From contig NC_088307.1 of NCBI RefSeq assembly GCF_032854445.1, positions 2,792,001-2,856,000 on the forward strand: a DNA stretch of 64,000 bases, in the 5' to 3' direction. Made by a program: the position numbers and the translations under genes. How positions within the stretch are numbered: position 1 is the first letter of the stretch; the number at the start of each line of letters is the position of its first letter. Origin of the DNA: Liolophura sinensis (taxonomy: Eukaryota > Mollusca > Polyplacophora > Chitonida > Chitonidae). The notes under the pieces are model-generated. The model had not been told where the DNA came from. It saw only the letters and a list, made by a program, of their open reading frames with translations, and searched no databases. This document shows positions 15,629 to 58,896 of the stretch, piece by piece.

Positions 15629-15847
15629 TCACAACTTAGATGTCACAGTTTCTCCTAAAACAGTTCTCATGTCCAGCATTGACTGTTCCAAAACTCTGAC
15701 AAAATTAGAAGAGTCAGTTTCAGGACTGGTGTTGAAGGCTGTTACCGCTATGTGGATTTTCTCGTCCTTAGGATTGTAGCATACTCCATAACCATCTGGA
15801 GTGGCTGGGCCGTAACACATCACAGTTTTGCTGGCCTTGGAGGGCAC
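15629..15847 (-). CDS. CRAT: CRAT last coding exon, PTS1
   Basis: Encodes [26 protein letters not shown] and on to [12 protein letters not shown], then TGA (15631-15629). Acceptor TTTTCCAG. The final SKL is a canonical peroxisomal targeting signal. Confidence 0.96.
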   Translation of the reverse strand: MPSKASKTVMCYGPATPDGYGVCYNPKDEKIHIAVTAFNTSPETDSSNFVRVLEQSMLDMRTVLGETVTSKL

Positions 15848-18800
15848 CTGGAAAACAATGACCACACAACACACTCACTCATCTGTAGCACAGTAATTTT
15901 CAGGTAACATGCTAATGTCGAGAGACGGGGATATGTTGAAAGGTGTTTTTCTATACTGTGATTAGGCTATAATAAAAGAGATAATTTGCTATCAGTTCTG
16001 TAAGTCCAAGAAAAGAACAAACCCTACACGTCATCGTCAGCCACAGGTGCATACATAAAGGTAGGACAATAAAGCTTTTGCTCATACAGATCATGCATGT
16101 ATATAAAACCCTGTTATACATTCTGTTCACAACACAGCCATATTGTAATCTTAATGCTAGGTGTGTATTACAACACATTTCTTTGCATGTATTTGATTGG
16201 TTTAACCACAGTACTCAAGAATTTTATACTTGTATTATAGTTGTCCAGTTGATAGGTGGACAAACATAAGGAATGTACGTATGGGGTTTAACGTCCCACT
16301 TAACAATTTTTCAGTCATATAACAATGCAGAGTCATTAGGTGTGTGTACAAACACTGTGTTTTCTTGTGAAAGGGCGAGTCTATGCCGCCAAAATGCTGG
16401 CAACACTGAAGTATCATGCCAAAGATACCAGACATGAAATACAACCCAGTCACATCATATTGACACCGGGCCAACCAGTCCTGTTTCCTTGCACTCACCT
16501 CAAGGCAGCAGCAACTACCATATTTATAGTCTATGGCATGACCCAACCCGGGTTTGATCTTGGGTCTGCCGACTTTGACATTTTGTCTGTCAGTGTATCG
16601 ATACCTCATATCGTAATGGTTAAAATATTTTAAACTGCTGTGTGAAGGAATTCTTCAAATAGCCATGACAAAAAAAATGAGTATGTCAAAAAAAGGGGAG
16701 GGCTCTGTAAATTTTAAAGTGACGCTTTCCGTATACTAATGGAGATAAAAAGTGCACGAAGTTAAAATCCCTATGCTATGTTTCCCAGGCATGCGATTGT
16801 GTTTGTGATTACTTGTCCTATAGTCCTTCTGAGAGCGAGATTTACGCAAAAACGCACAGGCCATGGAAACACGGTAGCGAAAGAGTCGAGCAATCAAACA
16901 AACGTGATCATGTGTCCATGGAAACACAGCTTAAGCCAGCCACTTTACCGCTCTTTAGCCACTGATCACAAGTATGTTTTCTAGAGAAACAGAGGACTTG
17001 AAATTCATGGCTGTCACAACACAGCTCAAGACAGCAACATTACCACCCTAACCACACCATAGTTTCATCAATAAACAGAGTGAGTGAGTGAGCCCTTAGG
17101 GTTTAACGTCATCCTTAACAATTTTTCAGTCACATGATGACGAAGAAGTCCTTAGGGTGCATGAACATGTACTGTGCTTCCTTTTTACAGGGCGGCCAAT
17201 AAACAGAGGATTAGCTCACCTGGCTGGGGGACAGTTTAAACTCCATGGCTGTTGCAAAACACACCTTAGGGCAGCCACATTACAACTTTCTCCACAAACA
17301 GAGGATTTGCTCACCTGGCTGGTGGACAGTTTAATCTCCATGGCTGTTGCAAAACACAGCTTAGAGCAGCCACATTACCACTTTCTCCACAAACAGAGGA
17401 TTAGCTCACCTGGCTGGGGGACAGTTTAAACCCCATGGCTGTTGCAAAACACAGATTAGGGCAGCCACATTACAACTTAAACCACAAACAGAGGATTAGC
17501 TCACCTGGCTGATGGACAGTTTAAACTCCATGGCTGTTGCAAACACAGCTTAGAGCAGCCACATTACCACTTTAACCACAAACAGAGGACTAGCTCAACT
17601 GGCTGGTGGACAGTTTAAACTCCATGGCTGTTGCAAAACACAGCTTAGAGCAGCCACATTACCACTTTAACCACAAACAGAGGACTAGCTCAACTGGCTG
17701 GTGGACAGTTTAAACTCCATGGCTGTTGCAAAACACAGCTTAGAGCAGCCACATTACCACTTTCTCCACAAACAGAGGATTAGCTCACCTGGCTGGTGGA
17801 CAGTTTAAACTCCATGGCTGTTGCAAAACACACCTTAGGGCAGCCACATTACAACTTTAACCACCGAACAATAGTTTTTCTCCACAAACTGAGGATTAGC
17901 TCACCTGGCTGGTGGACAGTTTAATCTCCATGGCTGTTGCAAAACACAGCTTAGGGCAGCCACATTACCACTTTAACCACAAACAGAGGACTAGCTCAAC
18001 TGGCTGGTGGACAGTTTAAACTCCATGGCTGTTGCAAAACACAGCTTAGAGCAGCCACATTACCACTTTCTCCACAAACAGAGGATTAGCTCACCTGGCT
18101 GGTGGACAGTTTAAACTCCATGGCTGTTGCAAAACACACCTTAGGGCAGCCACATTACAACTTTAACCACCAAACAATAGTTTTTCTCCACAAACTGAGG
18201 ATTAGCTCACCTGGCTGGTGGACAGTTTAAACTCCATGGCTGTTGCAAAACACACCTTAGGGCAGCCACATTACCACTTTAACCACAAACAGAGGACTAG
18301 CTCACCTGGCTGGTGGACAGTTTAAACTCCATGGCTGTTGCAAAACACACCTTAGGGCAGCCACATTACCACTCTCTCCACAAACAGAGGATTAGCTCAC
18401 CTGGCTGGTGGACAGTTTAAACTCCATGGCTGTTGCAAAACACAGCTTAGGGCAGCCACATTACAACTTTAACCACCAAACAATAGTTTTTCTCCACAAA
18501 CAGAGGATTAGCTCACCTGGCTGGTGGACAGTTTAATCTCCATGGCTGTTGCAAAACACAGCTTAGAGCAGCCACATTACCACTTTCTCCACAAACAGAG
18601 GACTAGCTCACCTGGTTGGGGGGGACAGTTTAAACTCCATGGCTGTTGCAAAACACAGCTTAGGGCAGCCACATTACCACTTTCTCCACAAACAGAGGAC
18701 TAGCTCACCTGGCTAGGGGACAGTTTAAACTCCATGGCTGTTGCAAAACACAGCCTAGGGCAGCCACATTACCACTTTAACCACCAAACAACAGTTTTTC

Positions 18801-21800
18801 TCCACAAACAGAGGATTAGCTCACCTGGTTAGGGGACAGTTTAAACTCCATGGTTGTTGCAAAACACACCTTAGGGCAGCCACATTACAACTTTAACCAC
18901 CAAACAATAGTTTTTCTCCACAAACAGAGGATTAGCTCCCCTGGCTGGTGGACAGTTTAATCTCCATGGCTGTTGCAAAACACAGCTCAGGGCAGCCACA
19001 TTACCACTTTCTCCACAAACAGAGGATTAGCTCCCCTGGCTGGTGGACAGTTTAATCTCCATGGCTGTTGCAAAACACAGCTTAGGGCAGCCACATTACC
19101 ACTTTCTCCACAAACAGAGGATTAGCTCCCCTGGCTGGTGGACAGTTTAATCTCCATAGCTGTTGCAAAACACAGCTTAGGGCAGCCACATTACCACTTT
19201 CTCCACAAACAGAGGACTAGCTCACCTGGCTGATGGACAGTTTAAACTCCATGGCTGTTGCAAAACACACCTTAGGGCAGCCACATTACCACTTTAACCA
19301 CCAAACAATAGTTTTTCTCCACAAATAGAGGACTAGCTCACCTGGCTAGGGGACAGTTTAAACTCCATGGTTGTTGCAAAACACAGCTTAGGGCAGCCAC
19401 ATTACAACTTTAACCACCAAACAATAGTTTTTCTCCACAAACAGAGGATTAGCTCCCCTGGCTGGTGGACAGTTTAATCTCCATGGCTGTTGCAAAACAC
19501 ACCTTAGGGCAGCCACATTACCACTTTCTCCACAAACAGAGGATTAGCTCCCCTGGCTGGTGGACAGTTTAATCTCCATGGCTGTTGCAAAACACAGATT
19601 AGGGCAGCCACATTACAACTTTAACCACCAAACAATAGTTTTTCTCCACAAATAGAGGACTAGCTCACCTGGCTGGTTGACAGTTTAAACTCCATGGCTG
19701 TTGCAAAACACACCTTAGGGCAGCCACATTACCACTTTCTCCACAAACAGAGGATTAGCTCCCCTGGCTGGTGGACAGTTTAAACTCCATGGCTGTTGCA
19801 AAACACAGCTTAGGGCAGCCACATTACCACTTTCTCCACAAACAGAGGATTAGCTCACCTGGCTGGTGGACAGTTTAAACTCCATGGCTGTTGCAAAACA
19901 CACCTTAGGGCAGCCACATTACCACTTTCTCCACAAACAGAGGGTTAGCTCACCTGGCTGGTGGACAGTTTAATCTCCATGGCTGTTGCAAAACACAGCT
20001 TAGGGCAGCCACATTACCACTTTCTCCACAAACAGAGGATTAGCTCACCTGGCTGGTGGACAGTTTAATCTCCATGGCTGTTGCAAAACACACCTTAGGG
20101 CAGCCACATTACCACTCTCTCCACAAACAGTGAGGATTAGCTCACCCGGCTGGGGGACAGTTTAAACTCCATGGCTGTTGTAAAACACAGCTTAGGGCAG
20201 CCACATTACCACTTTAACCACCAAACAATAGTTTTTCTCCACAAACAGAGGACTAGATCACCTGGCTATGGGACAGTTTATTCTCCATGGCTGTTGTAAA
20301 ACACAACTTAGGGCAGCCACATTACCACTTTAACCACCAAACAATAGTTTTTCTCCACAAACAGAGGATTAGCTCACCTGGCTGGTGGACAGTTTAAACT
20401 CCATGGCTGTTGCAAAACACAGATTAGGGCAGCCACATTACCACTTTAACCACCAAACAATAGTTTTTCTCCACAAACAGAGGATTAGCTCCCCTGGCTG
20501 GTGGACAGTTTAATCTCCATGGCTGTTGCAAAACACAGCTTAGGGCAGCCACATTACCACTTTCTCCACAAACAGAGGACTAGCTCACCTAGCTGGTGGA
20601 CAGTTTAAACTCCATGGCTGTTGCAAAACACAGCTTAGGGCAGCCACATTACCACTTTCTCCACAAACAGAGGACTAGCTCACCTAGCTGGTGGACAGTT
20701 TAAACTCCATGGCTGTTGCAAAACACAGCTTAGGGCAGCCACATTACAACTTTAACCACCAAACAATAGTTTTTCTCCACAAACAGAGGATTAGCTCCCC
20801 TGGCTGGTGGACAGTTTAAACTCCATGGCTGTTGCAAAACACAGCTTAGGGCAGCCACATTACAACTTTCTCCACAAACAGAGGACTAGCTCCCCTGGCT
20901 GGTGGACAGTTTAAACTCCATGGCTGTTGCAAAACACAGCTTAGGGCAGCCACATTATCACTTTCTCCACAAACAGAGGATTAACTCCCCTAGCTGGTGG
21001 ACAGTTTAATCTCCATGGCTGATGCAAAACACAGCTTAGGGCAGCCACATTACCACTTTCTCCACAAACAGAGGATTAGCTCCCCTAGCAGGTGGACAGT
21101 TTAAACTCCATGGCTGATGCAAAACACAGCTTAGGGCAGCCACATTACCACTTTCTCCACAAACAGAGGATTAGCTCACCTGGCTGGTGGACAGTTTAAA
21201 CTTCATAGCCGTGGCGTAGGCTCCGTCCATGTGAAGGTCAGGCACGTTCTGACCACTCTCCAATGCGGCCAGCTTCAAACCTAACAGGTGACGGTCAATT
21301 GCCTGACCACTTATAGCCTGCAATAAACAGCAACTGGTCAGCTTTCACAACATGCTGTGGTTTACAGCTTAACTCAAAGACAAAGCCAAAAGACTTGAGG
21401 CTTTCATTAAATTGAAACATTATGTTTCAACAAGTTTCAAATAAAAAATACATAACCAGATTCAAGTAAAAAGTACATAGACAGATTTAAGTAAAAAATA
21501 CATAACCAGATTCAGGTATAATATACATAACCAGATTCAAGTAAAAAATACATTTCTTATTCATTTATTTGACTTGTTTTAGCAGTAATCAAGAATATTT
21601 CACTTATACGATAGCAATCAGGATTATGGTAGGAGGACACCGGGCAGAGCCCGAGGGAAACCCATCTGTAGGTTGCTGGCAGCCCTTCCCACTGATGACC
21701 AACACATTTCTCATCTAGATGTCTAATATCTTCTGTAAATAATGCTGTACATGTACATATGATAAAATAACACACAGGATTCACCTGCTCATGCTGATAC

Positions 21801-24800
21801 TTGTTGAAAACAGGATGGTATAAATATGAATGAATAAAGAACACAGTTACAGGTAGTTATAATATCCAAATTGTATCTATCAATGGCTGTTAGGCTGTTC
21901 AAAACATTGAAGTAATAATTATCCCAAAAAATGCCAGTGTTGTGTGGGCGTGTACATGAGGGTGTGCACATGGTTGGTGGTGCAGTGCGGCATTGCATTC
22001 TCACTTGTCAGCAGAATTTCCATACGTTTCACTGATTTAATCTAAACCTTGTCTATAGTCTGTTTCCTTCTTGAGATGCCACAGTGTCACTGACAAATTG
22101 TTCATCTTTTTAGAAATACTGGGACCCGTCTTACAAAGCTTTGAATAAAATATGTCAAGTGCATTTAGCAAGGTGATTTATTTCCTCACTATAAGTTGCA
22201 TGGATGTTACACCAAGCGCATTTAGCATGGTGATTTATTTCTTCACGATAAGTTCCATGGATGTTACACCAAGCGCATTTAGCATGGTGATTTATTTCTT
22301 CACTGAAAGTTGCATGGATGTTGCACCAAGCGCATTTAGCATGGTGATTTATTTCCTCACTATAAGTTGCATGGATGTTACACCAAGCGCATTTAGCATG
22401 GTGATTTATTTCTTCACGATAAGTTCCATGGATGTTACACCAAGCGCATTTAGCATGGTGATTTATTTCTTCACTGAAAGTTGCATGGATGTTGCACCAA
22501 GCGCATTTAGCATGGTGATTTATTTCTTCACGATAAGTTGCATGGATGTTACACCAAGCGCATTTAGCAAGGCGATTTATTTCTTCACGATAAGTTGCAT
22601 GGATGTTACACCAAGTGCATTTAGCATGGTGATTTATTTCTTCACGATAAGTTGCATGGATGTTACACCAAGCGCATTTAGCATGGTGATTTATTTCTTC
22701 ACGATAAGTTCCATGGATGTTACACCAAGCGCATTTAGCATGGTGATTTATTTCTTCACTGAAAGTTGCATGGATGTTGCACCAAGTGCATTTAGCATGG
22801 TGATTTATTTCTTCACAATAAGTTGCATGGATGTTACACCAAGCGCATTTAGCAAGGTGATTTATTTCTTCACTATAAGTTGCATGGATGTTGCACCAAG
22901 CGCATTTAGCATGGTGATTTATTTCTTCACGATAAGTTCCATGGATGTTACACCAAGCTCATTTAGCATGGTGATTTATTTCTTCACTGAAAGTTGCATG
23001 GATGTTGCACCAAGTGCATTTAGCATGATGATTTATTTCTTCACGATAAGTTGCATGGATGTTACACCAAGTGCATTTAGCATGGTGATTTATTTCTTCA
23101 CTATAAGTTGCATGGATGTTACACCAAGCGCATTTAGCAAGGCGATTTATTTCTTCACTATAAGTTGCATGGATATTGCACCAAGCGCATTTAGCAAGGT
23201 GATTTATTTCTTCACTATAAGTTGCATGGATATTGCACCAAGCGCATTTAGCATGGTGATTTATTTCTTCACGATAAGTTGCATGGATGTTACACCAAGC
23301 GCATGATGCAAGAAGATGTAATATTTTCGTAATTCAGGCCCCTTGATATTATTAGCTGTGGCACGGCTTGTTTTGTTTTTATTCATACTCAAGTATTAAT
23401 ATTCAAGTCATCAACCCTCTTACATCTGCTGTGTATTGCCTGTGAGCCGTGATAGCTGTCCGAAGCAGCTTCTCAGTGACCTCCCTTGGTTTGCCCTCGG
23501 ACATTGCCCTTGTGAACTCGCAGGCTTCAGGTGTACACGACCGTATGGTCTCTGTGCGCCCTGACTGGAACATGCGTGTTGAGGCGCTCTCGTATGTACT
23601 GCCATGCTCGGAATGAATTCTGAAAAATTACAACAGAAGATTTTATCAGATGTATAAAGATGACAAAGAGGTAAAAAAAAAACACTGTGTGGTAGAAGAG
23701 CTATTTAGTGGCCCTTTCAGATGGATGAATCAATCTAAATCAAGCAAATGTTTCACTTGAAAAATGCTAAACTTCAGGTGAAATACAATATTTCCCATTA
23801 ATGAGAGTGTACCTTGTGCATCCTACAAGTACAATGTAATAAGTATTACTTATTACAAGAATATGTATCATTGCACCAACCTGTAGTAAGCCAGTTGTAT
23901 ACATGTACACCTACACACACCTGTAACAGCCCATGTAACTTCACTTACCTGTAGTAAGCCAGCTGTATACATGTACAGCTCCACATACCTGTGACAGCCC
24001 GTGTCACTTCACTCACCTGTAGTAAGCCAGTTGTATACATGTACAGCTCCACACACCTGTAACAGCCCATGTCACTTCACTCACCTGTAGTAAGCCAGCT
24101 GTATACATGTACACCTACACACACCTGTAACAGCCCATGTCACTTCACTCACCTGTAGTAGGTCAGTTGTATACATGTACACCTACACACACCTGTAACA
24201 GCCCATGTAACTTCACTCACCTGTAGTAAGCCAGCTGTATACACGTACAGCTCCACACACCTGTGACAGCCCATGTAACTTAACTCACCTGTAGTAGGTC
24301 ATTTGTATACATGTACACCTACACACACTTGTAACAGCCCATGTAACCACTCACCTGTAGTAAGCCAGTTGTATAGCCACCTGGATGAAGGCATCTGGAC
24401 TCACTTTGCTGGACTTTGCAAAAGCTTTGCCAAAATGGTTGAAAGTCAAGGCTGTCAAATCAAGGTCGCTAATTTGTCTGCAAGTTGTTAAAACAAATGT
24501 CAAATGCAAAGTAAATGGAGAATGAGCAAAATAAAATTCTTTCTCTTCGATAGCACAATGTTTTCTGCTGCATCAAAGGGCATGAGAATTAACACAATCG
24601 AAGCCAACATTAAAAAAAAATCATTAATAAGATTTTAAAGTTCTGCTTTGTATGTCGCATTTATGGTTTCCAATCCCATCCAATCCCAAGATTTACGGTT
24701 TCCTGCTGCATGCAGTCCCAAGATTTATGGTCTCCAATACCATCCAATCCCAAGATTTACAGTTTCCTGCTGCATGCAATCCCAAGATTTATGGTCTCCA

Positions 24801-27800
24801 ATCACATCCAATCCCAAGATTTACGGTTTTCTGCTGCATGCAGTCCCAAGATTTATGGTCTCCAATACCATCCAATCCCAAGATTTACGGTTTCCTGCTG
24901 CATGCAATCCCAAGATTTATGGTCTCCAATCACATCCAATCCCAAGATTTAGGGTTTCCTGCTACAGGCAATCCCAAGATTTATGGTCTCCAATCACATC
25001 CAATCCCAAGATTTCAGGTTTCCTGCTGCATGCAATCCCAAGATTTATGGTCTCCAATCACATCCAATCCCAAGATTTAAGGTTTCCTGCTACATGCAAT
25101 CCCAAGATTTATGGTCTCCAATCACATCCAATCCCAAGATTTAAGGTTTCTTCCCGCATGCAGTCCCATGATTTATGGTCTCCAGTCCCAAGATTTATAG
25201 TCTCCAGTCTCATCCAGTCCCAAGATTTAACGTTTCCTCCCACATGCAGTCCCAAGATTTATGAAGAGCATAAACACCAAACATATAAATAAATAAATAA
25301 ATAAATATAATCTCACCAAGCCCCAAGTTATTTTCTCCAGTCATGTCCAGCCCCAAGATTATTTTTTCCAGTCACATCCAGCCCAAAGATTATTTTCTCT
25401 AATCATATCCAGTCCCATGATTATTTTCTCCAGTCACATCCAGCCCCAAGATTATTTTTTCCAGTCACATCCAGCCCAAAGATTATTTTCTCTAGTCATA
25501 ACCAGTCCCATGATTACTTTCTCCAGTCACATCCAGCCCCAACATTATTTTCTCCAGTCACAATCAGTCCCAAGATTATTTTCTCCAGTCACATCCAGAA
25601 CCAACATTATTTTCTCCAGTCATATCCAGCCCCAAAATATTTTCTCCAGTCATATCAAGCCCCAAGATTATTTTCTTCAGTCACAATCAGTCCCAAGATT
25701 ATTTTCTCCAGTCACATCCAGCCCCAAGATTACTTTCTCCAGTAACATCCAGCCCCAAGATTACTTTCTCCAGTCACATCCAGCCCCAACATTATTTCCT
25801 CCAGTAATATCCAGCCCCAACATTATTTTCTCCAGTCACATCCAGCCCCAACATTATTTTCTCCAGTCACATCCAGAACCAAAATTATTTTCTCCAGTCA
25901 CATCAAGAACCAAGATTATTTTCTCCAGTCACATCCAGAACCAACATTATTTTATCCAGTAACATCCAGCCCCAAGATTACTTTCTCCAGTCACATCCAG
26001 GACCAAGATTATTTTCTCCAGTCACATCCAAACCCAAGATTATTTTCTCCAGTCATATCCAGCCCCAAGATTATTTTCTCTAGTCATATCCAGTCCCATG
26101 ATTACTTTCTCCTGTCACATCCAGCCCCAAGATTACTTTCTCCAGTCACATCCAGCCCCAAGATTATTTTCTCCAGTCATATCCAGCCCCAAGATTATTT
26201 TCTCCAGTCACATCCAGCCCCAAGATTATTTTCTCCAGTCACATCCAGCCCCAAGATTATTTTCTCCAGTCACATCCAGGACCAAGATTATTTTCTCCAG
26301 TCACATCCAGGACCAAGATTATTTTATCCAGTAACATCCAGCCCCAAGATTACTTTCCCCAGTCACATCCAAACCCAAGATTATTTTCTCCAGTCACATC
26401 CAGGACCAAGATTATTTTATCCAGTAACATCCAGCCCCAAGATTACTTTCTCCAGTCACATCCAGAACCAACATTATTTTATCCAGTCACATCCAGCCCA
26501 AAGATTATTTTCTCCAGTCACATCTAGCCCCAAGATTATTTTCTCCAGTCATATCCAGCCCCAAGATTATTTTCTCCAGTCACATCCAGCCCAAAGATTA
26601 TTTTCTCCAGTCACATCCAGGACCAAGATTATTTTCTCCAGTCACATCCAGGACCAAGATTATTTTCTCCAGTCACATCCAGGACCAAGATTATTTTATC
26701 CAGTAACATCCAGCCCCAAGATTACTTTCTCCAGTCACATCCAGCCCCAAGATTATTTTCTCCAGTCACATCCAGGACCAAGATTATTTTATCCAGTAAC
26801 ATCCAGCCCCAAGATTACTTTCTCCAGTCACATCCAGAACCAACATTATTTTATCCAGTCACATCCAGCCCAAAGATTATTTTCTCCAGTCATATCCAGG
26901 ACCAAGATTATTTTCTCCAGTCACATCCAGGACCAAGATTATTTTATCCACTAACATCCAGCCCCAAGATTACTTTCTCCAGTCACATCCAGCCCCAACA
27001 TTATTTTATCCAGTCATATCCAGCCCAAAGATTATTTTCTCCAGACACATCCAGCCCCAAGATTATTTTCCCCAGTCACATCCAGCCCCAAGATTATTTT
27101 CTCCAGTCACATCCAGCCCCAAGATTATTTTCCCCAGTCACATCCAGCCCCAAGATTATTTTCCCCAGTCACATCCAGCCCCAAGATTATTTTCCCCAGT
27201 CACATCCAGCCCCAAGATTATTTTCTCCAGTCACATCCAGCCCCAAGATTATTTTCCCCAGTCACAAGATTATTTTCCCCAGTCACATCCAGCCCCAAGA
27301 TTATTTTCCCCAGTCACATCCAGCCCCAAGATTATTTTCCCCAGTCACATCCAGCCCCAAGATTATTTTCCCCAGTCATATCCAGACCTTAGATTTATGG
27401 TTTCCGGTCATATCCAGTCCCAAAATTATTATAGGCTAACATCTTGAACTTTACATTAATGTCAACTGCAGAGAGCTGACAAGAAAACAGTTTTAATAGA
27501 AGATGGTCCCATGTCATTATCAGAAATCTATCGCTAGGCCTTAGCCTTCGAGTCATTTGACATCTCATTTTTTACATCAATAACTGAGTTAATGTTTAAC
27601 AGCATGCTGACATCTCACAGCCCAGTACTTACGAGTCTGCGTGCACCTTGGCTGCCTCAATGTCCTCCAGCGTTTGGGTGTCCAGGTTAAACTTGAGACG
27701 TCTGGGTGGGTCTGACTCAACAGGAGAATTCGTTGTCTCTTCAGCCTTGTCACTGTACAGAAGGAAAGCGAGGGCTTAGCTCAAGGCAGCTTGCTGACAG

Positions 27801-33800: not shown

Positions 33801-35856
33801 ATGTATTACGTTAGGCTTAATGTTTTCAAGTGCTGCATGTGTCTGGGATCATAACTTAGTGTACAGCTGTCTTTTTTTGGGGTATTCTTGGGTGTCACGG
33901 CACAGAGAACAGCTGGATTACAAATAGCAAGATGCCTGCTCAAAGCGTGCTAGTAGTGCAATAATGTCATGCCACTGAAAACCTTCAGCTGCATATAGCA
34001 TGATGGTAAATGTGTTAAAAGCATAGGCAAGGTCGTCACTTACTTCAGTTGTCCCTTCTCATCAGTGTAGTCTTGAGGTGGCATGGTAAGGCCTGGGTTA
34101 ATATGGATCATGATGGGACCCCTGGGGGACAGGTAAGCTGTGTCTAACCACCAATCAGCCAGCTGTAAGGTACACACAACATACACACAACTACAACCCA
34201 AGGGTTTTAACCATGATTACCAGAAGTAAAAATCCTACTGTTTTCTTTACATAAATATTACTGGTTGGTTTAAATTTATCTCCTGAGAGTATTTCACTTT
34301 TATGTCCAGTGCAGATAAGGGATTGAGGAATCGAATTAACACCGAGTACAAAATCTTACACGTACATCAAATCCACGAAATCAAAACTCTGAACAGCAAG
34401 GAAATCATGTAATATTCATTCTGAACACCAAACATTAATAAATAATATCCATTTTGAAACATCAACTAAGAAACTGTCCCGTTTCAATCGAATGGTGCCG
34501 TAACAAAACTCAGGTATGAGCTCTGTGAGATATGAAAAAACAGAGGTCTATCCAACTCATAGCAATCCAAGACTTATTACGGCAGATTTCTTTGAAAATG
34601 GAAAGGTTTACCAGCAGAAAAATGTACAGCATGATGAAAAGCAGAACAGTTTTAATCAGAATACTTTTTGTTCTAGAATTTTTGTTGTCCAAAAACAAAA
34701 CAGGAGATCAAACTTCTCTAAAGTCTGGGCTGGCAAATTATCCACATTATTTGGTAATTCTGTACTTTCTTTGGTTCAGAAATGCTTCTGTCCATTTCTA
34801 GACATTAAACATGGCTTTACAAACATCTGCCTGATCATGAATAAGAGTTATTCGCCCTTATTCTTGTATAGTAGTACTGACCCAGTTCTCTGTGACATTT
34901 GCCCTGTGAAGCAGTTTCTCTTGCAGCTCAGGACCTGGACTCTTGGCAAACTTCTCCACAATCTGCTCAAAATAATTTAAAAAAAAAAACAACACTCAGA
35001 CTTCTTTACAATATGCTCAATATATTACAGTATTCAAACTTCTTCAAAATTTGCTCAAGACATAACAAACTTCAAACATATTCACAGTATGCTCTAAATG
35101 AAACAATATTTGAATTTCTTGTCCGCACAAAACAGTATTCAAACTTCTTCACAATCTACTCTAAACGAATCAGTATTCAAACTTCTTCATAATCTGCCCA
35201 AAATAAAACAATCTTCAAACTTCTTCACAATATGCTCAAAACAAAAAAATGCTCAAAGCTCTTAACAATCTACTCAAAACAAAACATATTCTTGTATCAG
35301 GAAATGTGCATCAAGCATCAAACAATTTAAGGTGATCTAAATGTGAATATGGCAACAGCGTAAGTAAGAAGTGACAAGCCAGGTGACTTTAACACTATCA
35401 CAGAAATTCAGTTTACGTGATCATTCTGTGCCGTTTACATTAACAAAATTCTTATTCCTAAGCATAGGTTTATTATGTTTATTCCATCTGTCACACTGGT
35501 AAAAACTAAATCTTATTTCAGCAATTTCTTTTTTTTTGTTTTAAACCACAACATGGCTGCAATATAGCCTAATAAAAGCCACAGTCAATCATTCATTCCA
35601 TTTTCTGTTACAGACAACAGAAACATACAGAACTTCGTATACATGTAACTTGTTAGTTCCTTTCACCAACCTGCTTTGTCTCTTTGAATTCCTCTGGGGT
35701 GAGCAGGGGTTGCACCACCCTCAGGTACTTGTTCAGGGTCTGGTCTAGGGGCGGGACAGGCAGACGGGGGAGGGAGTCCTGTACAGAGAACATCCGGCGC
35801 CCGGGGATCTTTCCCTTTAGAGGCATCCTGAGAGAGCTGTGCCTGATGGGAGGAGC
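15629..35856 (-). CDS. CRAT: Carnitine O-acetyltransferase
   Basis: Thirteen exons on the minus strand, from 35671-35856 down to 15629-15847. All phases close, giving 618 codons from the first acceptor or 608 aa from the first Met (ATG at 35826-35824), near the roughly 626 aa of vertebrate CRAT. It transfers acetyl groups between CoA and carnitine in mitochondria and peroxisomes (family knowledge). Landmarks, numbered from that Met: [11 protein letters not shown] near the N-terminus; [22 protein letters not shown]; catalytic His325 in [31 protein letters not shown]; the STS motif 533-535 in [22 protein letters not shown]-terminal SKL, a PTS1 signal. A further 5' exon carrying a longer mitochondrial presequence may exist but was not found. 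COT and ChAT are less likely because of the overall match to CRAT. Several introns carry arrays made from the adjoining exon edges. Confidence 0.95.
16190..16245 (-). mobile_element. SINE family 1, 3' fragment
   Basis: TTTGATTGGTTTAACCACAG then ACTCAAGAATTTTATACTTG resembles the reversed SINE tail. It lies in the last CRAT intron. Confidence 0.5.
16274..16605 (-). mobile_element. SINE family 2 copy
   Basis: Reversed copy: tail GGGGTTTAACGTCCCACTTA, ACAATTTTTCAGTCATATAA; middle GCCAAAGATACCAGACATGA; tRNA-like head at the right, CCCGGGTTTGATCTTGGGTC. Same order as the plus copy at 48155. Confidence 0.75.
17083..17196 (-). mobile_element. SINE family 2, 3' fragment
   Basis: AGGGTTTAACGTCATCCTTA, ACAATTTTTCAGTCACATGA and AGTCCTTAGGGTGCATGAAC. 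It ends where the 95-bp array begins. Confidence 0.7.
17197..21179 (-). repeat. CRAT exon-12-derived minisatellite, 95-bp unit, about 39 copies
   Basis: On the minus strand each unit reads GCAACAGCCATGGAGTTTAA ACTGTCCACCAGCCAG, then the donor region GTGAGCTAATCC, then about 48 bp of intron-like sequence. The first 36 nt match the last 12 codons of CRAT exon 12 (array [12 protein letters not shown], exon [12 protein letters not shown]). Some units are about 23 bp longer (CACCAAACAATAGTTTTTCT). By eye about 25 of 39 keep GT at the donor; the rest are GGGAGC or TTGAGC. The real exon sits at the 5' end of the array in the direction of transcription. Confidence 0.95.
21180..21317 (-). CDS. CRAT: CRAT exon 12, STS motif
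   Basis: 46 codons, phase 0 both sides: [46 protein letters not shown]. The STS triplet lines the active site in carnitine acyltransferases. Acceptor TATTGCAG, donor GTGAGC. A 4-kb array of copies of its 3' end fills the next intron. Confidence 0.96.
21555..21702 (-). mobile_element. SINE family 1, 3' part
   Basis: Reversed tail and core: CAAGAATATTTCACTTATAC, GGAGGACACCGGGCAGAGCC, GTAGGTTGCTGGCAGCCCTT. The head is lost. It lies in CRAT intron 11. Confidence 0.75.
22152..23308. repeat. Minisatellite, 57-bp unit, 20 copies, open for 384 codons on +
   Basis: It lies in the CRAT intron between exons 11 and 12, antisense to CRAT when read as an ORF. The unit encodes [19 protein letters not shown] (19 residues). 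Variants fall in order: a unit ending ISS is usually followed by one ending ESC and then one starting MDVA, a higher-order pattern. It has no start context, signal or non-repeat protein sequence, so it is listed as a repeat, not a gene. Confidence 0.9.
23424..23619 (-). CDS. CRAT: CRAT exon 11
   Basis: Encodes [40 protein letters not shown] and on to TAHRQYTAD. Acceptor TTTTTCAG, donor GTAAGA. It contains the conserved TYESAS.R.F..GRT..IRS block. Confidence 0.96.
23876..24354 (-). repeat. CRAT exon-10-derived minisatellite, about 68-bp unit, 7 copies
   Basis: Each unit holds, on the minus strand, TATACAGCTGGCTTACTACAG followed by GTGAGT or GTAAGT, matching the last 22 nt of exon 10 (AIQLAYYR) and its donor; the rest is intronic. 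Donor-like sites lie near 23948, 24016, 24084, 24152, 24230 and 24288. The true donor ends at 24354. Confidence 0.9.
24355..24477 (-). CDS. CRAT: CRAT exon 10
   Basis: Encodes [40 protein letters not shown] plus a split Arg. Acceptor CTTGCAG, donor GTGAGT. The downstream intron starts with an array built from its last 22 nt and donor. Confidence 0.95.
24655..25266. repeat. Minisatellite, 64-bp unit, about 9.5 copies
   Basis: Unit: CCAATCCCAAGATTTACGGT, TTCCTGCTGCATGCAATCCC, AAGATTTATGGTCTCCAATC, ACAT. Each unit is itself two similar halves built on ATCCCAAGATTTA. It lies in CRAT intron 9; the open frames here are repeat artefacts. Confidence 0.9.
25318..27402. repeat. Minisatellite, 31-bp unit, about 66 copies
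   Basis: Unit: CTCCAGTCACATCCAGCCCC then AAGATTATTTT. It neighbours and shares the AGTCCCAAGATT core with the 64-bp array, so the two probably have a common origin. Variants (GGACC, TTATCC, TTCCCC) recur in blocks. Confidence 0.92.
27633..27752 (-). CDS. CRAT: CRAT exon 9
   Basis: Encodes [39 protein letters not shown]. Acceptor CTGTACAG, donor GTAAGT. It corresponds to the PLP.PKKLRFN..PEI region of vertebrate CRAT and is less conserved in its first half. Confidence 0.9.
28189..28416. mobile_element. TIR element, copy 2
   Basis: Same internal order as 9766-9968 (TTTATTCA, GAATATTCTG, TGATAAAATTATACTTTTTG, TTTTGTCTCC, AAAAATGTATATAAA), with TIR-like ends GATTCTTGAACC and GGTTGAGGAAGTAG. In CRAT intron 8. 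Confidence 0.55.
28488..28588 (-). CDS. CRAT: CRAT exon 8, catalytic histidine
   Basis: Encodes [33 protein letters not shown]. The His in YEH is the general base of the family (residue 325 in the 608-aa numbering). Acceptor TTTCAG, donor GTAAGC. Confidence 0.95.
29009..29185 (-). mobile_element. SINE family 1 copy, 5' truncated
   Basis: Reversed tail TTTATTTGACTGGAGTTTTA, a small GGCAGGAGGAAAATG triplication, then GCAGGGCCCGGGGGAAACTC and GCAGGTTGCTGGCAGACCTT. In CRAT intron 7. Confidence 0.8.
29565..29620 (-). mobile_element. tRNA-like SINE head fragment
   Basis: Its complement reads GGTGGCCTAATGGTTAGGGT GTCCGCCTC, a tRNA A-box-like head. No full tRNA cloverleaf or B box follows, so it is not called a tRNA gene. 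Confidence 0.5.
29967..30145 (-). CDS. CRAT: CRAT exon 7
   Basis: 60 residues including a split Asp: [37 protein letters not shown]. Acceptor TATTTCAG, donor GTAAGT. Confidence 0.95.
31000..31171 (-). CDS. CRAT: CRAT exon 6
   Basis: 57 codons plus 1 nt, [20 protein letters not shown] to [23 protein letters not shown]. Acceptor CTGCAG, donor GTACCA (weak consensus). Confidence 0.93.
32184..32352 (-). CDS. CRAT: CRAT exon 5
   Basis: Encodes [40 protein letters not shown] and so on to VLRNNH. Acceptor GTTACAG, donor GTGAGT. It carries the conserved LGGKPLCM and CR.PGP.(x)D blocks. Confidence 0.95.
32887..33062. mobile_element. Possible TIR element
   Basis: Left GTCAACCTTTTCACACAATA and right GTAGAAAGGTTGAAGAAACA are near inverted repeats of the 9766 element ends. 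In CRAT intron 4. Confidence 0.4.
33216..33269 (-). CDS. CRAT: CRAT exon 4 (54 nt)
   Basis: Encodes [17 protein letters not shown] with split codons at both ends. Acceptor TTCTAG, donor GTAAGT. Confidence 0.92.
33401..33612. mobile_element. TIR element, further copy
   Basis: Left GTACCCTAATTCTTCAATCT TTTCAACTG, right TTTGGTTGAAAAGATTTACA GTAGAC. AT-rich interior without an ORF. In CRAT intron 3. Confidence 0.5.
34044..34162 (-). CDS. CRAT: CRAT exon 3
   Basis: Encodes [39 protein letters not shown] and AA of a split Lys. Acceptor CCTTACAG, donor GTAAGT. The W-x-x-AYL..R.P pattern is typical of carnitine acyltransferases. Confidence 0.93.
34882..34962 (-). CDS. CRAT: CRAT exon 2
   Basis: 27 codons, [20 protein letters not shown] then ANVTENW. 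Acceptor TTTTGAGCAG, donor GTCAGT. It matches the CRAT segment that ends in TENW. Confidence 0.9.
34945..35290 (-). repeat. CRAT exon-2 acceptor-derived array, about 38-bp unit, about 8 copies
   Basis: On the minus strand copies read like TTTTGAGCATATTGTGAAGA AGTTTGAA, matching the exon 2 junction GAGCAG|ATTGTGGAGAAGTTTG. Several copies keep an AG at the junction (GAGTAG|ATTGTGAAG, GGGCAG|ATTATGAAG). The true exon is the copy nearest 34962. Confidence 0.8.
35671..35856 (-). CDS. CRAT: CRAT exon 1 as found (N-terminal)
   Basis: Acceptor TTTGCAG just above 35856, donor GTTGGT below 35671; 62 codons, phase 0. It reads [20 protein letters not shown] then [20 protein letters not shown]. Either translation starts at the Met of MPLKGK (35826) or an upstream exon feeds the acceptor. 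The basic [14 protein letters not shown] stretch fits a short matrix-targeting signal (inference). Confidence 0.85.
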
Positions 35857-36098
35857 CTGCAAACATGAGATCGGAGGAGTTTGTAAACATGACACAAGAG
35901 GAATTTTTAAACATGAGCTCGGGGGAGGTTGTATACATGACATGGGAGGAGTCTCTGAACATCAAAGGGGAGGAGTTTATAAACATGAGATGGGAGGAGT
36001 TTGTAAACATGAGATGGGAGGAGTTTGTAAACATGAGATGGAAAAAGCCTGCAATCATGAGAAGGGAGAGGCCTACAATCAAAAGAAGGGAAGAGCCT
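35845..36098 (-). repeat. CRAT exon-1 acceptor-derived array, 24-bp unit, about 11 copies
   Basis: Minus-strand unit ATGTTTACAAACTCCTCCCATCTC without its last base pairs matches the exon junction ATGTTTGCAG|GCTCCTCCCATC. Besides the true junction, three outer copies end in TTGCAG, TTGTAG and TTACAG, possible acceptors. The unit is 8 codons long, so neighbouring frames stay open over the array. Confidence 0.8.
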
Positions 36099-36119
36099 GT
36101 AAGCAAATAAAGCAAGCAA

Positions 36120-51800: not shown

Positions 51801-54800
51801 ATTTTCAGATCCAGTTTATCGGTGTGGTGTCTTGCTAGAGGAGAACTACAGTTTGTCAGAAGAGAAAAATATAGAAATCTGCCCCTGAAGTCTGCTCAAG
51901 CAAGTCTGTAGTCTGCCATAATAACCAAAGTGATGCAAACTACTTATGCAAACTGTTTTACAAAGATTCCTTATTGCCATCTAGACGGTGGAGAAGTTAC
52001 TGGAACTGTTAGAAATCCTGGATACTTGGATTGATGAGATTCCACCCATTGATCAACCTCAGAGGTTTGGCAATAAGGCCTTCAGAGATTGGTTCAAGCG
52101 GCTGGAAGAGGTGGGTTTTAAGTTTTCATTGGTCAGTGAGGTTTACTTGTCATTTTTTATTTTAGTTCTTTTTTTTTTAGGGGTTTTAATCATGTTTAAA
52201 ATTTTAATGAAAGATATAAACAAATCTAAAGTTGTTGTTGGAAGGGACTGATTTATATTTGAAACATAATTTTGTAAGAATGTATTAAATTTCCAGCATC
52301 AACAAAATAAGAGCCTAGGACTGTCTATACCCAAGAGAAACATTGATTTCTGATTTCTGCATTTGAACTTCATGCTTCATAGCTTGTATTATTTATATCT
52401 TTCATTGTTCATCCTTTCATTGAATGTTGCTTTTGTTTTTATGATGCTAACTTAATTTTCATTTGAATTCTTTCTGTCTGTCATAGCAAGCAGAGGAATT
52501 ATTAAAGAAAGCGATGGATGAGAAATACCACAAAGCCTTACCTGAGGTTATGGCTTACCTGGTGGAGGGGGTTGGGAACTCTACGCGGATAGATTATGGA
52601 ACTGGTGAGAAATACCACAAAGCCTTACCTGAGGTTAGGGTTTACCTGGTGAAAGGGGTGGGGAACTATGCAAATAGATTATGGAACTGGTGAGAAATAC
52701 CACAAAGCCTTACCTGAGGTTATGGCTTACCTGGTGGAGGGGGTTGGGAACTCTACCCAGATAGATTATGGAACTGGTCAGAAATACCACAAAGCCTTAC
52801 CTGAAGTGATGGCTTACCTGGTGGAGGGGGTTGGGAACTATGCGAATAGATTATGGAACTGGTGAGAAATACCACAAAGCCTTACCTGAGGTTATGGTTT
52901 ACCTGGTGGAGGGGTGGGGAACTCTACGTGGATAGATTATGGAACCGGTGAGAAATACCACAAAGCCTTACCTGAGGTTATGGGTTACCTGGTGGAGGGG
53001 GTGGGGAACTCTACGGAGATAGATTAGAAGTAATAGGAAATATCTGACATCTGTGATATGACTGATTGATTTTTTTTTTGTATTTGATGATAAATAATTG
53101 CAGTCATTACTAAGAAACTCAGTAGATGGTTCACTTGTCTAAAGTATTACACAATTAAAATGTTGAAACGTATGGGAGCAGCCAAACTGTGTATGGAAGA
53201 GGTGAAGTCTCATCCTAAAGGGAGACAACTTCATTGGTGTGACAGTGTATCGTATAATGTGGAGATGTTGACATTGTACTAGTGTAATCTGTTCATGTTG
53301 ATTGTGGTATTTCAGGTCATGAGATGTCATTTGCAGCCTTCCTCCTCTGTCTGTATAAGATTGGGGTGCTAACAGAAGAGGATGCCCCTGCTGTAGTATT
53401 GAAGCTCTTCAACAGGTATTTCAGCGTTTTGACGTTAGCGCGCTAGCGCAGCGTAATGACCCAGGAGCCTCTCACCAATGCGGTTGCTGTGAGTTCAGGT
53501 CCAGCTCATTCTGGCTTTCTCTCCGGTTGTAAGCGGGAAGGTCTGCCAGCAACCTGCGGATGGTCGTGGGTTTCCTCCGGGCTGTGCCCGTTTTCCTCCC
53601 ACCATAATGCTGGCCGCCGTTGTATAAGTGAAATATTCTTGAGTACGGCGTAAAACACCAATCAAATAAATAAATAAATATATCAAATTTTGACAAACAT
53701 GTGACAGAAGTTATACAACATAATTTGTGTACGTTTTTGTAATTTTTGTCATAACTTGGGCCTTGAAGAATCTTGAAAACTGTTGTATTTTTATTAATAA
53801 TGTTTCAGTTCAGAGTGTGACTGATGTATTACAAATTTACGATGTTTTAGTTATTTAAGAAGAGGGATGTTTTTTTTTCTGACATTCAAGGTAACCATAA
53901 ATCAACTTCTGTTAAGGAATTCTTATAAGGCTATGAAATACGCCATGTTTGAGCAACCAGGAACATGTCCCGTCACTGGTACCTCATGTATGTATGTATG
54001 CTTGTGGTTAAATAGGATTTGTGTGATGTGAGCGGATGTAAAAGCATCTTCGAGCCGCAGAGAAAATTCGCACCTATTTGGAAAAAAAAAATAATTGTTT
54101 CAATGTGTGTGACGTTGATTACTTTGAACTATGATATCTCAGGTGTACTACATCACAGTTGTGCTACATTACAGTTGTACTACAACAAAGAAACTAAAAG
54201 TTCTAAAAGTTCGAAACTAAAAGCCTTTTAAACTTTTAAAAGTGGGATACTTAATTGATGCATATATTGGCCTAGTGTTGTCTTTTCTTTTAAAGGAAAA
54301 GATGTGTCAAAGTAGGCATAACTAAATAGGCCAGTTGAAACTATACATAAATATACTTCCATTTATTTTCATGAAAAGAGTTAAAGGCACTCAAACATTT
54401 GAATTTGAGGGTGGGCTTCATGGACCATACTATCAGATGTTATGAACTCTCACGTCACAGGAAGTTTATTCAACTCTAATCACGACGCTGAATGTTGGAA
54501 TAACTCATTTACCCATGAGTAAAAGATTACTGAAAAAAATTCCTTCCTTCTGTCCTTCTGATGTTCCCAAAAATTCCTTCCTTCTGGTGAACATCAGGAA
54601 AAAAGGTGATGTGACGTCAGAGTTTCTAGATATCGTCAGTATGGCTCATAGTGTTCAAATATTTGAATGCCTTTCAACACTCTCAAAAAAATCTGAAAAA
54701 ATACATGAAAGTATCTTTACACATAGTTTTCAACTGTGATGAACCCTACTTCATACTTTAGCTTTTTTTGACTTTGACGGTCATTTCCTGTGATAGTTTA

Positions 54801-57800
54801 CCTGTAGGGTTTTCATTGTGATTTCCGTTACAGTCAGTACTCCTTCTTGTCCAACTATTGCATGCATTATTACAACACCTGATGCAGTATAATGATGCTG
54901 ACAAATATGTTGTCCAAATTTTCTCACCACTTTTGTCAATAACCCATAATGGTTTATGTCCACAGGTATTTGCTGCTGGTGCGTAAGTTACAGGTGACAT
55001 ACAGAATGGAGCCTGCAGGGAGTCATGGAGTCTGGAGTTTGGATGATTATCAGTTCATACCCTTCCTCTGGGGAAGTGCTCAGCTTATAGGTAAGTTACA
55101 GGTGACATACAGAATGGAGCCTGCAGGGAGTCACGGAGTCTGGGTGATTATCAGTCCATACCCTTCCTCTGGAGAAGTGCCCAGCTCATAGGTAAGTTAC
55201 AGGTGACATACAGAATGGGGCCTGCAGGGAGTCACGGAGTCTGGGTGATTATCAGTCCATACCCTTTCTCTGGAGAAGTGCTCAGCTCATAGGTAAGTTA
55301 CAGGTGACATAAAAAATGGAGCCTGCAGGGAGTCATGGAGTCTGGAGTTTGGATGATTATCAGTTCATACCCTTCCTCTGGAGAAGTGCTCAGCTCATAG
55401 GTAAGTTAGAGGTGACATACAGAATGGAGCCTGCAGGGAGTCATGGAGCGATGGAGTCTGGATGGTCATCAATCCATACCCTTCCTCTTGAGAAGTGCCC
55501 AGCTCATAGGTAAGTTACAGGTGACGTACAAAATGGAGCCTGAAGGAGTCATGGAGCGATGGAGTCTGGATGATTGCCAGTCCATACCCTTTCTCTGGAG
55601 AAGTGCTCAGCTCATAGGTAAGTTAGAGGTGACATACAGAATGGAGCCTGCTGGGAATCATGGAGTCTGGATGATTATCAGTTCATACCTTCCTCTGCAG
55701 GTGTCCAGCTCATAGGTAAGTTACAGGTGACGTACAAAATGGAGCCTGAAGGGAGTCATGGAGCGATGGAGTCTGGATGGTCATCAATCCATACCCTTCC
55801 TCTGGAGAAGTGCCCAGCTCACAGGTAAGTTACAGGTGACTTACAGGATGGAACCTGCCGGCAGTCATGGAGTGTGGGTGATTATCAGTTCATACCCTTC
55901 CTCTGGGGAAGTGCTCAGCTCACAGGTAAGTTACAGGTGACATACAGAATGGAGCCTGCTGGGAATCATGGAGTCTGGATGATTATCAGTTCATACCCTT
56001 TTTCTGGAGAAGTGCCCAGCTCACAGGTAAGTTACAGGTGACATACAGAATGGAGCCTGAAGGGAGTCATGGAGTCTGGAGTTTGGATGATTATCAGTCC
56101 ATACCCTTCCTCTGGCGAAGTGCTCAGCTCATAGGTAAGTTACAGGTGACATACAGAATGGAGCCTGAAGGGAGTCATGGAGTCTGGATAATTGTCAGTT
56201 TATAACTTTCCTATGGGGAAGTGCTCAGGCCAGGTAAGTTACAGGTAAGATACAGAGTGGAGTCGACATGGAGTCATGGAGCCTGGATGATTGTCAGTTT
56301 ATAACCTTCCTCTTGGGAAGTACTCAGGCCAGGTAAGTTACAGGTGACATACAGAATGGAACCTGCACCTAGTCATGGAGTTAGCTCAGAGATATATATC
56401 TACTTGTAGATTTAGCAAGGTTCTGTCAATTTGCTCATAGTGTTTTGTGTAAATCTGGGGATGGTACTCATATCATCTTCAGAAGGGTGAGCTTTATTTG
56501 TGGGAGTTAGGTCGATGAATAAAGATGACTTAATAAAGCTCTTTGAGGTTTTAAGGTATGAGAAAAATTTAAGTTTTGCATTTTCAGAGAAAAAAAATGA
56601 AAGCTGAAGCTAAAATTTTTTTTAGTAGGATTTCATCCTATCCTCCAATCAAAGTCCAAAATATTTTTGTAAGGTGAATAGAACTCTTAGAATCTGGTAA
56701 AATGAGGCTAATTTTAGGTCAAATACATATTGCACGAGCCTCTCACCAATGAGGTCACTGTGAGTTCAAGTCCAGCTCATACTGGCTTTTCTCCGACTCC
56801 ACACTTTAAGGTCTGAGAGCAACCTGCAGATGGCCGTAGATTTCCTGGGTCCTGTCCGGTTTCTTCCCACCTTAATTGCTGGCTGCCGTTGTATAAGTGG
56901 AATATTCTTGAGTACGGAGTAAAACACCAATTAAATAAGTAAATGTAATATTTGTCATAATTATCTATAAGCATTGTTTCCATGTTGGACAGGTCATCAG
57001 AGAATATTTCCCAAGTCTTTCCTGAATCCAGACATTTACGAGACATTTTCTAAAGATTACATGTTCCTCAGCTGTATAAAGTATATCAGTGAGGTGAGTG
57101 CTATATTTAGCATTGTGGGTTCTGTACTGTTGTGGCCACATTATGGCTGAAATATTGCCCATGTGACGTTAAGCCATTGTGGCCACAGTATGGCTGAAAT
57201 ATTGTCCATGTGGCGTTAAGCCATAATCATTCATTCATTCATTCTGTACTGTTGTGGCCACAGTATGGCTGAAATATTGCACATGTGGCGTTAAGCCATA
57301 ATCATTCATTCTGTACTGTTGTGGCCACAGTATGGCTAAAATATTGTCCATGTGGTGTTAAGCCATAATCATTCATTCTGTACTGTTGTGGCCAAAGTAT
57401 GGCTGAAATATTGTCCCTGTGGCCACAGTGTGGCTGAAATATTGCCCATGTGGCATTAAGCCATTGTGGCCACAGTATGGCTGAAATATTGCCCATGTGG
57501 TGTTAAGCCATAATCATTCATTCTGTACTGTTGTGGCCACAGTATGGCTGAAATATTGGCCATGTGGCATTAAGCCATAATAATTCATTCATTCTGTACT
57601 GTTGTGGCCACAGTATGGCTGAAATATTGCCCATTTAGCATTAAGCCATAATAATTCATTCATTCTGTACTGTTGTGGCCACAGTATGGCTGAAATATTG
57701 GCCTTGTGGCATTAAGCCATAATCATTCATTCATTCTGTACTGTTGTGGCCACAGTATGGCTGAAATATTGGCCATGTGGCATTAAGCCATAATAATTCA

Positions 57801-58857
57801 TTCATTCTGTACTGTTGTGGCCACAGTATGGCTGAAATATTGCCCATGTAGCATTAAGCCATAATAATTCATTCATTCTGTACTGTTGTGGCCACAGTAT
57901 GGCTGAAATATTGCCCATGTGGCATTAAGCCATAATCATTCATTCATTCTGTACTGTTGTGGCCACAGTATGGCTGAAATATTGCCCATGTAGCATTAAG
58001 CCATAATAATTCATTCATTCTGTACTGTTGTGGCCACAGTATGGCTGAAATATTGCCCATGTGGTTTTAAGCCATAATCATTCATTCATTCTGTACTGTT
58101 GTGGCCACAGTATGGCTGAAATATTGGCCATGTGGCATTAAGCCATAATCATTCATTCATTCTGTACTGTTGTGGCCACAGTATGGCTGAAATATTGCCC
58201 ATGTGGTGTTAAGCCATAATCATTCATTCTGTACTGTTGTGGCCACATTATGGCTGAAATATTGCCCATGTGGTTTTAAGCCATAATCATTCATTCTGTA
58301 CTGTTGTGGCCACAGTATGGCTGAAATATTGCCCATGTAGTGTTAATCCATAATCATTCATTCTGTACTGTTGTATCACTTTGTTTATCTATCTGATTGT
58401 AGCTTAATGCCATACTCAATAATAGCAATCAGTTTTACAGATGGAGGAACAGGAGTGCCTGTCATAAACCACTGGCCTTGGGCAAATTACTGACATAAAC
58501 TTTCCCACAACTGTCCACAAATGGCCATACAAGCGCTTAGTATCACCAATTCGCCACGATCAGTGAGATTGGTGTACTGTTGTAGTCTGTGCATATCTCG
58601 TGGTTGTAATAATGAATTCAATGTATTCCAAGATCACAAACCGTGATCACAGCTAGCTGTACAAAAGTGCATGATGAGTGCCAATAAAGGGACAGTACTC
58701 TTGTAGGCACTGACTTCATTCAGTTTTGTCCTATCTGGTAATGTTGAAAAATGATCCACAGCATTGCTGCATCACAACTAAAACCTGAGAGGTTTGGTCC
58801 AGCTGTACAAAAAATTTTATCCAAATCTGTGCATGAAAAAATTCATCTGTTCCTTGC

Positions 58858-58896
<39 letters not shown>

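Follow-up and report, generated by a model that had tools for sequence, protein, structure and literature searches.

A CRAT intron of the chiton Liolophura sinensis holds a minisatellite made of an exon end and its splice donor, very probably a 'mirage' without splicing function

Tandem repeats that run across splice sites have been described in amphioxus as 'mirage' minisatellites, in the Adh3 gene and in the globin genes BflGb6 and BflGb9 (available portion of PMC3087553), to which similar repeats of PGBD5 were added, with TnC cited (available portion of PMC3902484). Here we describe a stretch of 64,000 nucleotides (G000:C13:2792001-2856000, within the 609-Mb assembly of the chiton Liolophura sinensis; hereafter the window, in whose own numbering positions are given), in which one intron of CRAT, the gene for carnitine O-acetyltransferase, is occupied by 39 copies of the end of exon 12 together with its donor. 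We consider it very probable that this array is a 'mirage' minisatellite without splicing function, and as such it belongs to a known class of repeat, with further instances in this genome.

As in the amphioxus mirages, the tandem units of the CRAT array hold exon and intron sequence across the splice site, both 5' and 3' boundaries are affected (here four donors and two acceptors), and the AG or GT is kept in many units and not in all (for amphioxus, in the accessible parts of PMC3087553 and PMC3902484). Unlike those, the chiton case has a mollusc and not a cephalochordate as its host, involves six splice sites across two neighbouring genes, and can be given a relative age from decayed units and a short interspersed nuclear element (SINE)-like insert. 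The copy number of 39 in one intron compares with 3 and 6 units in two BflGb6 haplotypes (from the portion of PMC3087553 at hand), and whereas splicing in amphioxus was shown by reverse-transcription polymerase chain reaction, as far as the source was accessible, the chiton case is known from sequence and database proteins. The Rogers model of intron gain through duplication of an AG/GT proto-splice site, as cited in the consulted part of PMC3087553, likewise has splice signals duplicated in tandem and copied exon letters spliced out as intron; in the chiton, however, an existing intron grew with no new intron position shown, and two arrays in the neighbouring gene PTPA have their donor letters found in the exon. 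Minisatellite-type repeats also lie at exon-intron boundaries of human segmental-duplication genes, where they are able to give rise to novel introns and to change splicing patterns (excerpted text of PMC2812944), while the chiton database proteins are unchanged. Among molluscs, an abalone gene carries a 27-bp intronic minisatellite that is not placed across a splice site (visible part of PMC6905558), the accessible portion of the chiton genome paper PMC12005716 makes no mention of such repeats, and no mollusc mirage was found among the matches listed in the open-licence literature.

CRAT exon 12 (21180..21317, minus strand; 46 codons ending in KFKLSTSQ) is followed by the donor GTGAGC (21174..21179, minus strand) and by an intron of 5332 nt (21179-15848) that leads to the last exon (15629..15847, minus strand; placed by the exon map and the database protein match). 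Into this intron runs the minisatellite (17201..21206, minus strand), whose typical unit comprises 36 nt resembling the exon end, a donor in the form CAG/GTGAGC (the slash marking the splice boundary) and intron-like sequence, with a total of 95 bp, or of 116 bp where a 21-nt insertion is present. Counting the exon itself, whose final 36 nt form unit 0, there are 40 core copies spanning 21215 to 17255, 39 of them intronic (21120 to 17255), in agreement with the count of about 39 given in an earlier reading made from the letters alone (hereafter the sequence-only reading). Over the 40 unit rows, exon unit included, 24 measure 95 bp, 12 measure 116 bp, two 97 bp and one 94 bp, the last row being set arbitrarily to 130 bp. 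The resemblance to the exon end is not due to chance, as this donor edge reaches z = 40.5 against Markov shuffles in a local alignment test, and that exon 12 with its donor seeded the array, as had been claimed, can be read in the sequence. The claim that the array fills the intron has to be reduced to a share of about 75%, although remnants of it extend further. A SINE-like insert with two flanking copies of a 12-nt duplication, CTCTGTTTATTG (starts 17208 and 17080), occupies 17069..17208 on the minus strand, its SINE nature being deduced, and past it the remains of roughly one and a half older units (16922..17080, minus strand), now decayed, align to the unit with a score of 68, against 24.5 for the best of 200 shuffles. 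Since the insert splits the last good unit from the decayed ones, the array predates the insert.

Among the 39 intronic donors, 25 retain GT (24 GTGAGC and one GTGATC), 11 have GG (10 GGGAGC and one GGGAGT) and three read TTGAGC, so that 14 of 39 are dead; the sequence-only reading had likewise seen around 25 GT copies and the spread of GGGAGC and TTGAGC subfamilies. The real donor has a U1 pairing energy of -11.1, which is equalled by 21 of the 24 intronic GTGAGC sites, the remaining three having -9.5 or -10.4; GTGATC has -8.2, the GG types -6.9 or -5.3 and the TT types -4.4. Ahead of the coding-like part, TTTTGCAACAG occurs in 32 exact copies, and an AG is present at that position in 37 of the 39 intronic copies, so the repeated motif and the latent 29-nt pseudo-exon noticed before are indeed there. 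The array shows no sign of coding constraint, as its diversity is highest at codon position 1 (0.111) and lowest at position 3 (0.024).

The comparison of exon 12 with the array points to sequence exchange between them. Exactly four of the 36 nt differ from the array consensus (GCC against GCA, ACG against ACA, GCT against GCC and AAG against GAG), and these are the three synonymous changes and one replacement listed earlier. All four fall within the first 15 nt of the exon unit and none within the remaining 80, while the array units depart from their own consensus by 0-1 differences in the first 15 nt and by 0-7 in the remaining 80. The exon unit is a mosaic: from its last 21 coding nt through the donor to the first bases of the intron it is identical to the array consensus, and the proposal that exon and array have diverged since seeding holds for the first 15 nt only. 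With sites treated as independent, the chance of finding no difference over the 59 intronic nt at the 15-nt rate is 1e-8. A tree of the units with exon 12 as a member had been suggested as a check; in such a tree, midpoint-rooted and without support values, the exon unit does fall with the array, nested near u13 and u19 and not at the base. In our reading, the exchange with the array may have run through the intron, the donor and 21 nt of coding sequence and ended there, and the end of exon 12 seems to be still exchanging with the array.

Exon 12 is not the only edge of this kind. A local alignment of each splice site with its neighbouring 4.5 kb was run for 40 edges of CRAT and PTPA (21 acceptors and 19 donors; the first coding exons of the two genes, near 45118 and 50585, are excluded), with exons labelled C1-C13 and P1-P8 in a numbering of our own, in which C1 is preceded by the first exon near 45118. 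Splice-site copies are borne by 6 of the 40 edges, namely the donors of C10, C12, P3 and P5 and the acceptors of C1 and C2, all with z > 8, and the other 34 have z of 1.1 or lower. At these six edges the array ends in the unit that holds the real splice boundary, and the five beyond exon 12 are absent from the sequence-only reading. The C10 donor-side array (23879..24375, minus strand) consists of 68-bp units holding 21 nt of the CRAT exon 24477-24355 (the end of IQLAYYR), GTGAGT and intron. On the acceptor side, the C1 array (35845..36107, minus strand) has 24-bp units around TTTGCAG/GCTCCTCCCATC at the CRAT exon start 35856, a start with which that of the database CRAT protein is consistent, and the C2 array (34947..35291, minus strand) has units of about 38 bp around TTTTGAGCAG/ATTGTGGAGAAGTTTG at the exon start 34962. 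An AG is found in 4 of 10 C1 decoys and in 3 of 7 aligned C2 decoys (one chance match 12 nt away and one copy that failed to align being left out), and in both arrays the nearest three are without it. Tandem Repeats Finder (TRF) alone gave C1 as the sole acceptor in an array, whereas sequence reading with local alignment gave both C1 and C2.

In the two PTPA arrays the units are entirely exonic. The P3 donor-side array (52519..53026, plus strand) has 85-87-bp units copied from the exon 52487-52604 (ending in DYGTG) with GTGAGAAA, the shared word being TGAGAAATACC, and the P5 array (54983..56381, plus strand) has units of 98-109 bp and, at its end, a truncated one, copied from the exon 54966-55090. 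In the latter the exon holds GTAAGTTACAG, which encodes RKLQ, and the intron opens with identical letters that serve as the donor. A Patella protein has the corresponding amino acids EEKYHPAI and RKCQTLYRMEP, hence the exon letters are likely the source; the donor itself may have been taken from the exon, or the break may have fallen within the shared letters. Together with the mosaic exon unit of CRAT, this leads us to a tentative proposal, which we think somewhat more likely to be wrong than right: that an intronic minisatellite is rewriting its host exon, array sequence having replaced the donor of CRAT exon 12 and the seven codons before it, and PTPA exon duplications having supplied donor letters from coding codons.

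The exon 12 array is best explained by a tandem duplication that captured the last 36 nt of exon 12 along with its donor and some 59 nt of intron, with unequal exchange or slippage then expanding the unit to about 40 copies and spreading variants such as the 21-nt insertion and the GG and TT donors. The array would be neutral, tolerated because the outermost donor, beside the real exon, is used and everything downstream is intron, while the first, coding unit may remain a party to exchange. In a repeat-rich stretch several splice sites would be caught by minisatellites in this way, C12 being one of them. An introner element, by contrast, is the same sequence at many loci, and a mobile intron whose units spread as carriers of splice sites would fit a homogeneous family in which most units have GT at their donor start and AG at their end. 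We find this scarcely credible, as the whole-genome search, which scores best candidates only so that other places cannot be wholly excluded, returned 40 matches to the CRAT unit, all inside C13:2809201-2813320, and every array examined has its own unit from its own exon.

As for splicing, the database CRAT protein joins exon 12 straight to exon 13. The 608-aa chain read from 13 exon pieces on the minus strand is 100% identical across the full query to the L. sinensis database protein (608 of 627 aa), and the 278-aa chain of the eight PTPA pieces on the plus strand is likewise identical across the full query (278 of 310 aa), both chains having been built with the first, exon-proximal donor of each array. 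Acceptors were scored with rough matrices of 15 to 21 sites each, decoys with a matrix omitting the array-bearing sites. Real acceptors have a median of 7.45 bits (range -4.3 to 15.1, leave-one-out, 21 sites) and the C12 pseudo-acceptors 0.5 to 2.2 bits, the 90th percentile of all AGs in the window being 2.4. The array might regulate CRAT if its decoy donors or 29-nt pseudo-exons routed transcripts to decay, and 21 of the 25 GT decoys do equal the real donor, 23 of the 25 GT units carry an upstream AG too, and inclusion of one to three pseudo-exons, or extension beyond the first donor, leads to an early stop. Regulation is nonetheless improbable to us, given such weak pseudo-acceptors, a pseudo-exon so short, the missing sign of coding constraint and similar arrays in unrelated genes. 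Thus, the functional effect on splicing put forward in the sequence-only reading is unsupported, and of the donor scoring it proposed, the equality of most decoys stands beside acceptors that are weak.

A recursive-splicing ladder, in which the intron would be removed piecemeal by stepwise use of AG/GT at the unit junctions, is less probable still. Such junctions are present in three of the four donor arrays of the window, and some C10 and P5 sites, at 2.9 and 3.0 bits, exceed the 90th percentile, but the P3 array has TG/GT, and as acceptors the AG/GT sites (-6.1 to -0.3 bits in C12, -3.1 to 2.9 in C10, -3.4 to 3.0 in P5) lie far from the real median. A recursive splice site has a pyrimidine tract ahead of its AG/GT, and a rough 19-site acceptor matrix does not find one there.

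Mirages were also found in other genes. Among 36 myosin-head exon hits, reading of the alignments left three donors with such arrays, from two genes that lie near contig ends: L031 (C12; 31-bp unit, 18 copies) and L033 (C12; 66-bp unit, 8 copies), which share one gene, and L042 (C11; 32-bp unit, 7.5 copies). The hits were hand-chosen from 81 matches, 18 of them from four genes no more than 2.7 Mb away from a contig end and 18 others (two L051 exons among these sit within 2 Mb of an end), and the rates are not genome averages, with edges placed by a rough score and two acceptors not placeable. Seven of the edges (36 donors and 34 acceptors) had z > 4 and three were kept; control positions passed in 20 of 64 cases over the first 16 stretches, against 4 of 48 over the remaining 12. 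L040 and L041 were dropped, the repeat being intron only, as were L029, a single decayed copy across an acceptor, and L046, which resembles an alternative duplicated exon. In L046 (1-1101; C1:26641700-26642800) the myosin exon end (NNNSSRF) is present a second time downstream of the first, carrying a separate GTAAGTA, and the pair are probably mutually exclusive exons. At L034 (z 3.7), left out of the count, the array begins at its donor.

No attraction of minisatellites to splice sites is needed, since local repeats contain a smaller share of the splice edges than of random intronic positions: the local-repeat test was passed by 6 of 40 edges against 45 of 120 positions drawn from both gene bodies. 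Circular shifts of the TRF arrays gave 5 edges observed against 12.7 expected (p = 0.04), and for acceptors 1 against 6.7 (p = 0.009). Acceptors look depleted in arrays, as might be expected if an early AG is harmful. That 5' splice sites are preferred seeds, enriching donor arrays through microhomology between the donor and a donor-like exon word, is unlikely in our judgement. It would account for both entirely exonic arrays joining at the donor, where the exon has a donor-like word (GTAAGT, TGAGAAA), and for clear cases of seven donors against two acceptors by our own reading, the weak L029 acceptor copy left out; yet TRF arrays hold 4 donor edges where circular shifts predict 6.0, and within the window 4 of 19 donors compare with 2 of 21 acceptors (Fisher p = 0.40). 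The window is rich in repeats: TRF arrays cover 32% of it, with a share of 44% in the body of CRAT and 37% in that of PTPA, and its cover of 31.6% compares with a mean of 11.4% in 20 sampled 10-kb stretches of C13 (period at least 10). It lies 2.8 Mb from a contig end, and sampled cover is 50% at 1.0 Mb (L009) and 30% at 3.9 Mb, at most a tendency for repeats to rise toward contig ends. Four of the 20 stretches (L018, L024, L025 and L027) are without a tandem repeat of period at least 10.

Several points weigh against our interpretation of the array as a mirage without function that was captured by chance. The Fisher p of 0.010 for the local-repeat test counts neighbouring positions as independent, circular shifts show no depletion of donors (4 observed against 6.0 expected, p = 0.27), and the link to contig ends is loose: along the 30.1 Mb, the stretches at 2.4 and 27.9 Mb have a cover of 10.5% and 0%, yet that at 20.4 Mb has 32%. 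In addition, the nearest four C12 units are all without GT (chance 0.012, the pattern being picked after it was seen), and selection against nearby decoys might be the reason; as the nearest decoy retains GT in C10, P3 and P5, such selection is not general. Correct splicing in vivo would follow from the database protein records, on which it rests.

With regard to the surroundings, CRAT (15629-45118) and PTPA (50585-60993) stand head to head, the first CRAT exon near 45118 on the minus strand and the first coding exon of PTPA near 50585 on the plus strand, and the two genes adjoin each other in the human genome as well. Further arrays lie within them. A 31-bp array of about 68 copies (25319-27430) lies in CRAT, in the intron bounded by exons 27752-27633 and 24477-24355, whose flanking edges test negative; a 51-bp array (59541-59868) ends 22 nt ahead of the acceptor of PTPA exon 59890-59997, with a negative edge test (z 1.1); and 71-bp units (ATGGCTGAAATATTGCCCATGTGGCATTAAGCC; 57130-58374), which we take to resemble an amplified SINE tail, begin 37 bp past the end of PTPA exon 56993-57093. 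An Rfam scan of the window at gathering thresholds gave no match.

Together, these arrays place mirages in a mollusc and have them recur in unrelated genes of one genome, and thus they are not a lancelet oddity. They offer a natural setting for testing how the spliceosome, faced with 26 GT donors that are nearly identical, settles on the outermost one, and whether repeats of an intron are able to overwrite the coding end of an exon. Should an intronic minisatellite indeed be rewriting its host exon, coding ends beside mirages would undergo concerted evolution with 'junk' DNA, and the 14 dead donors among the array's 39 would remain a permanent supply of harmful conversions.

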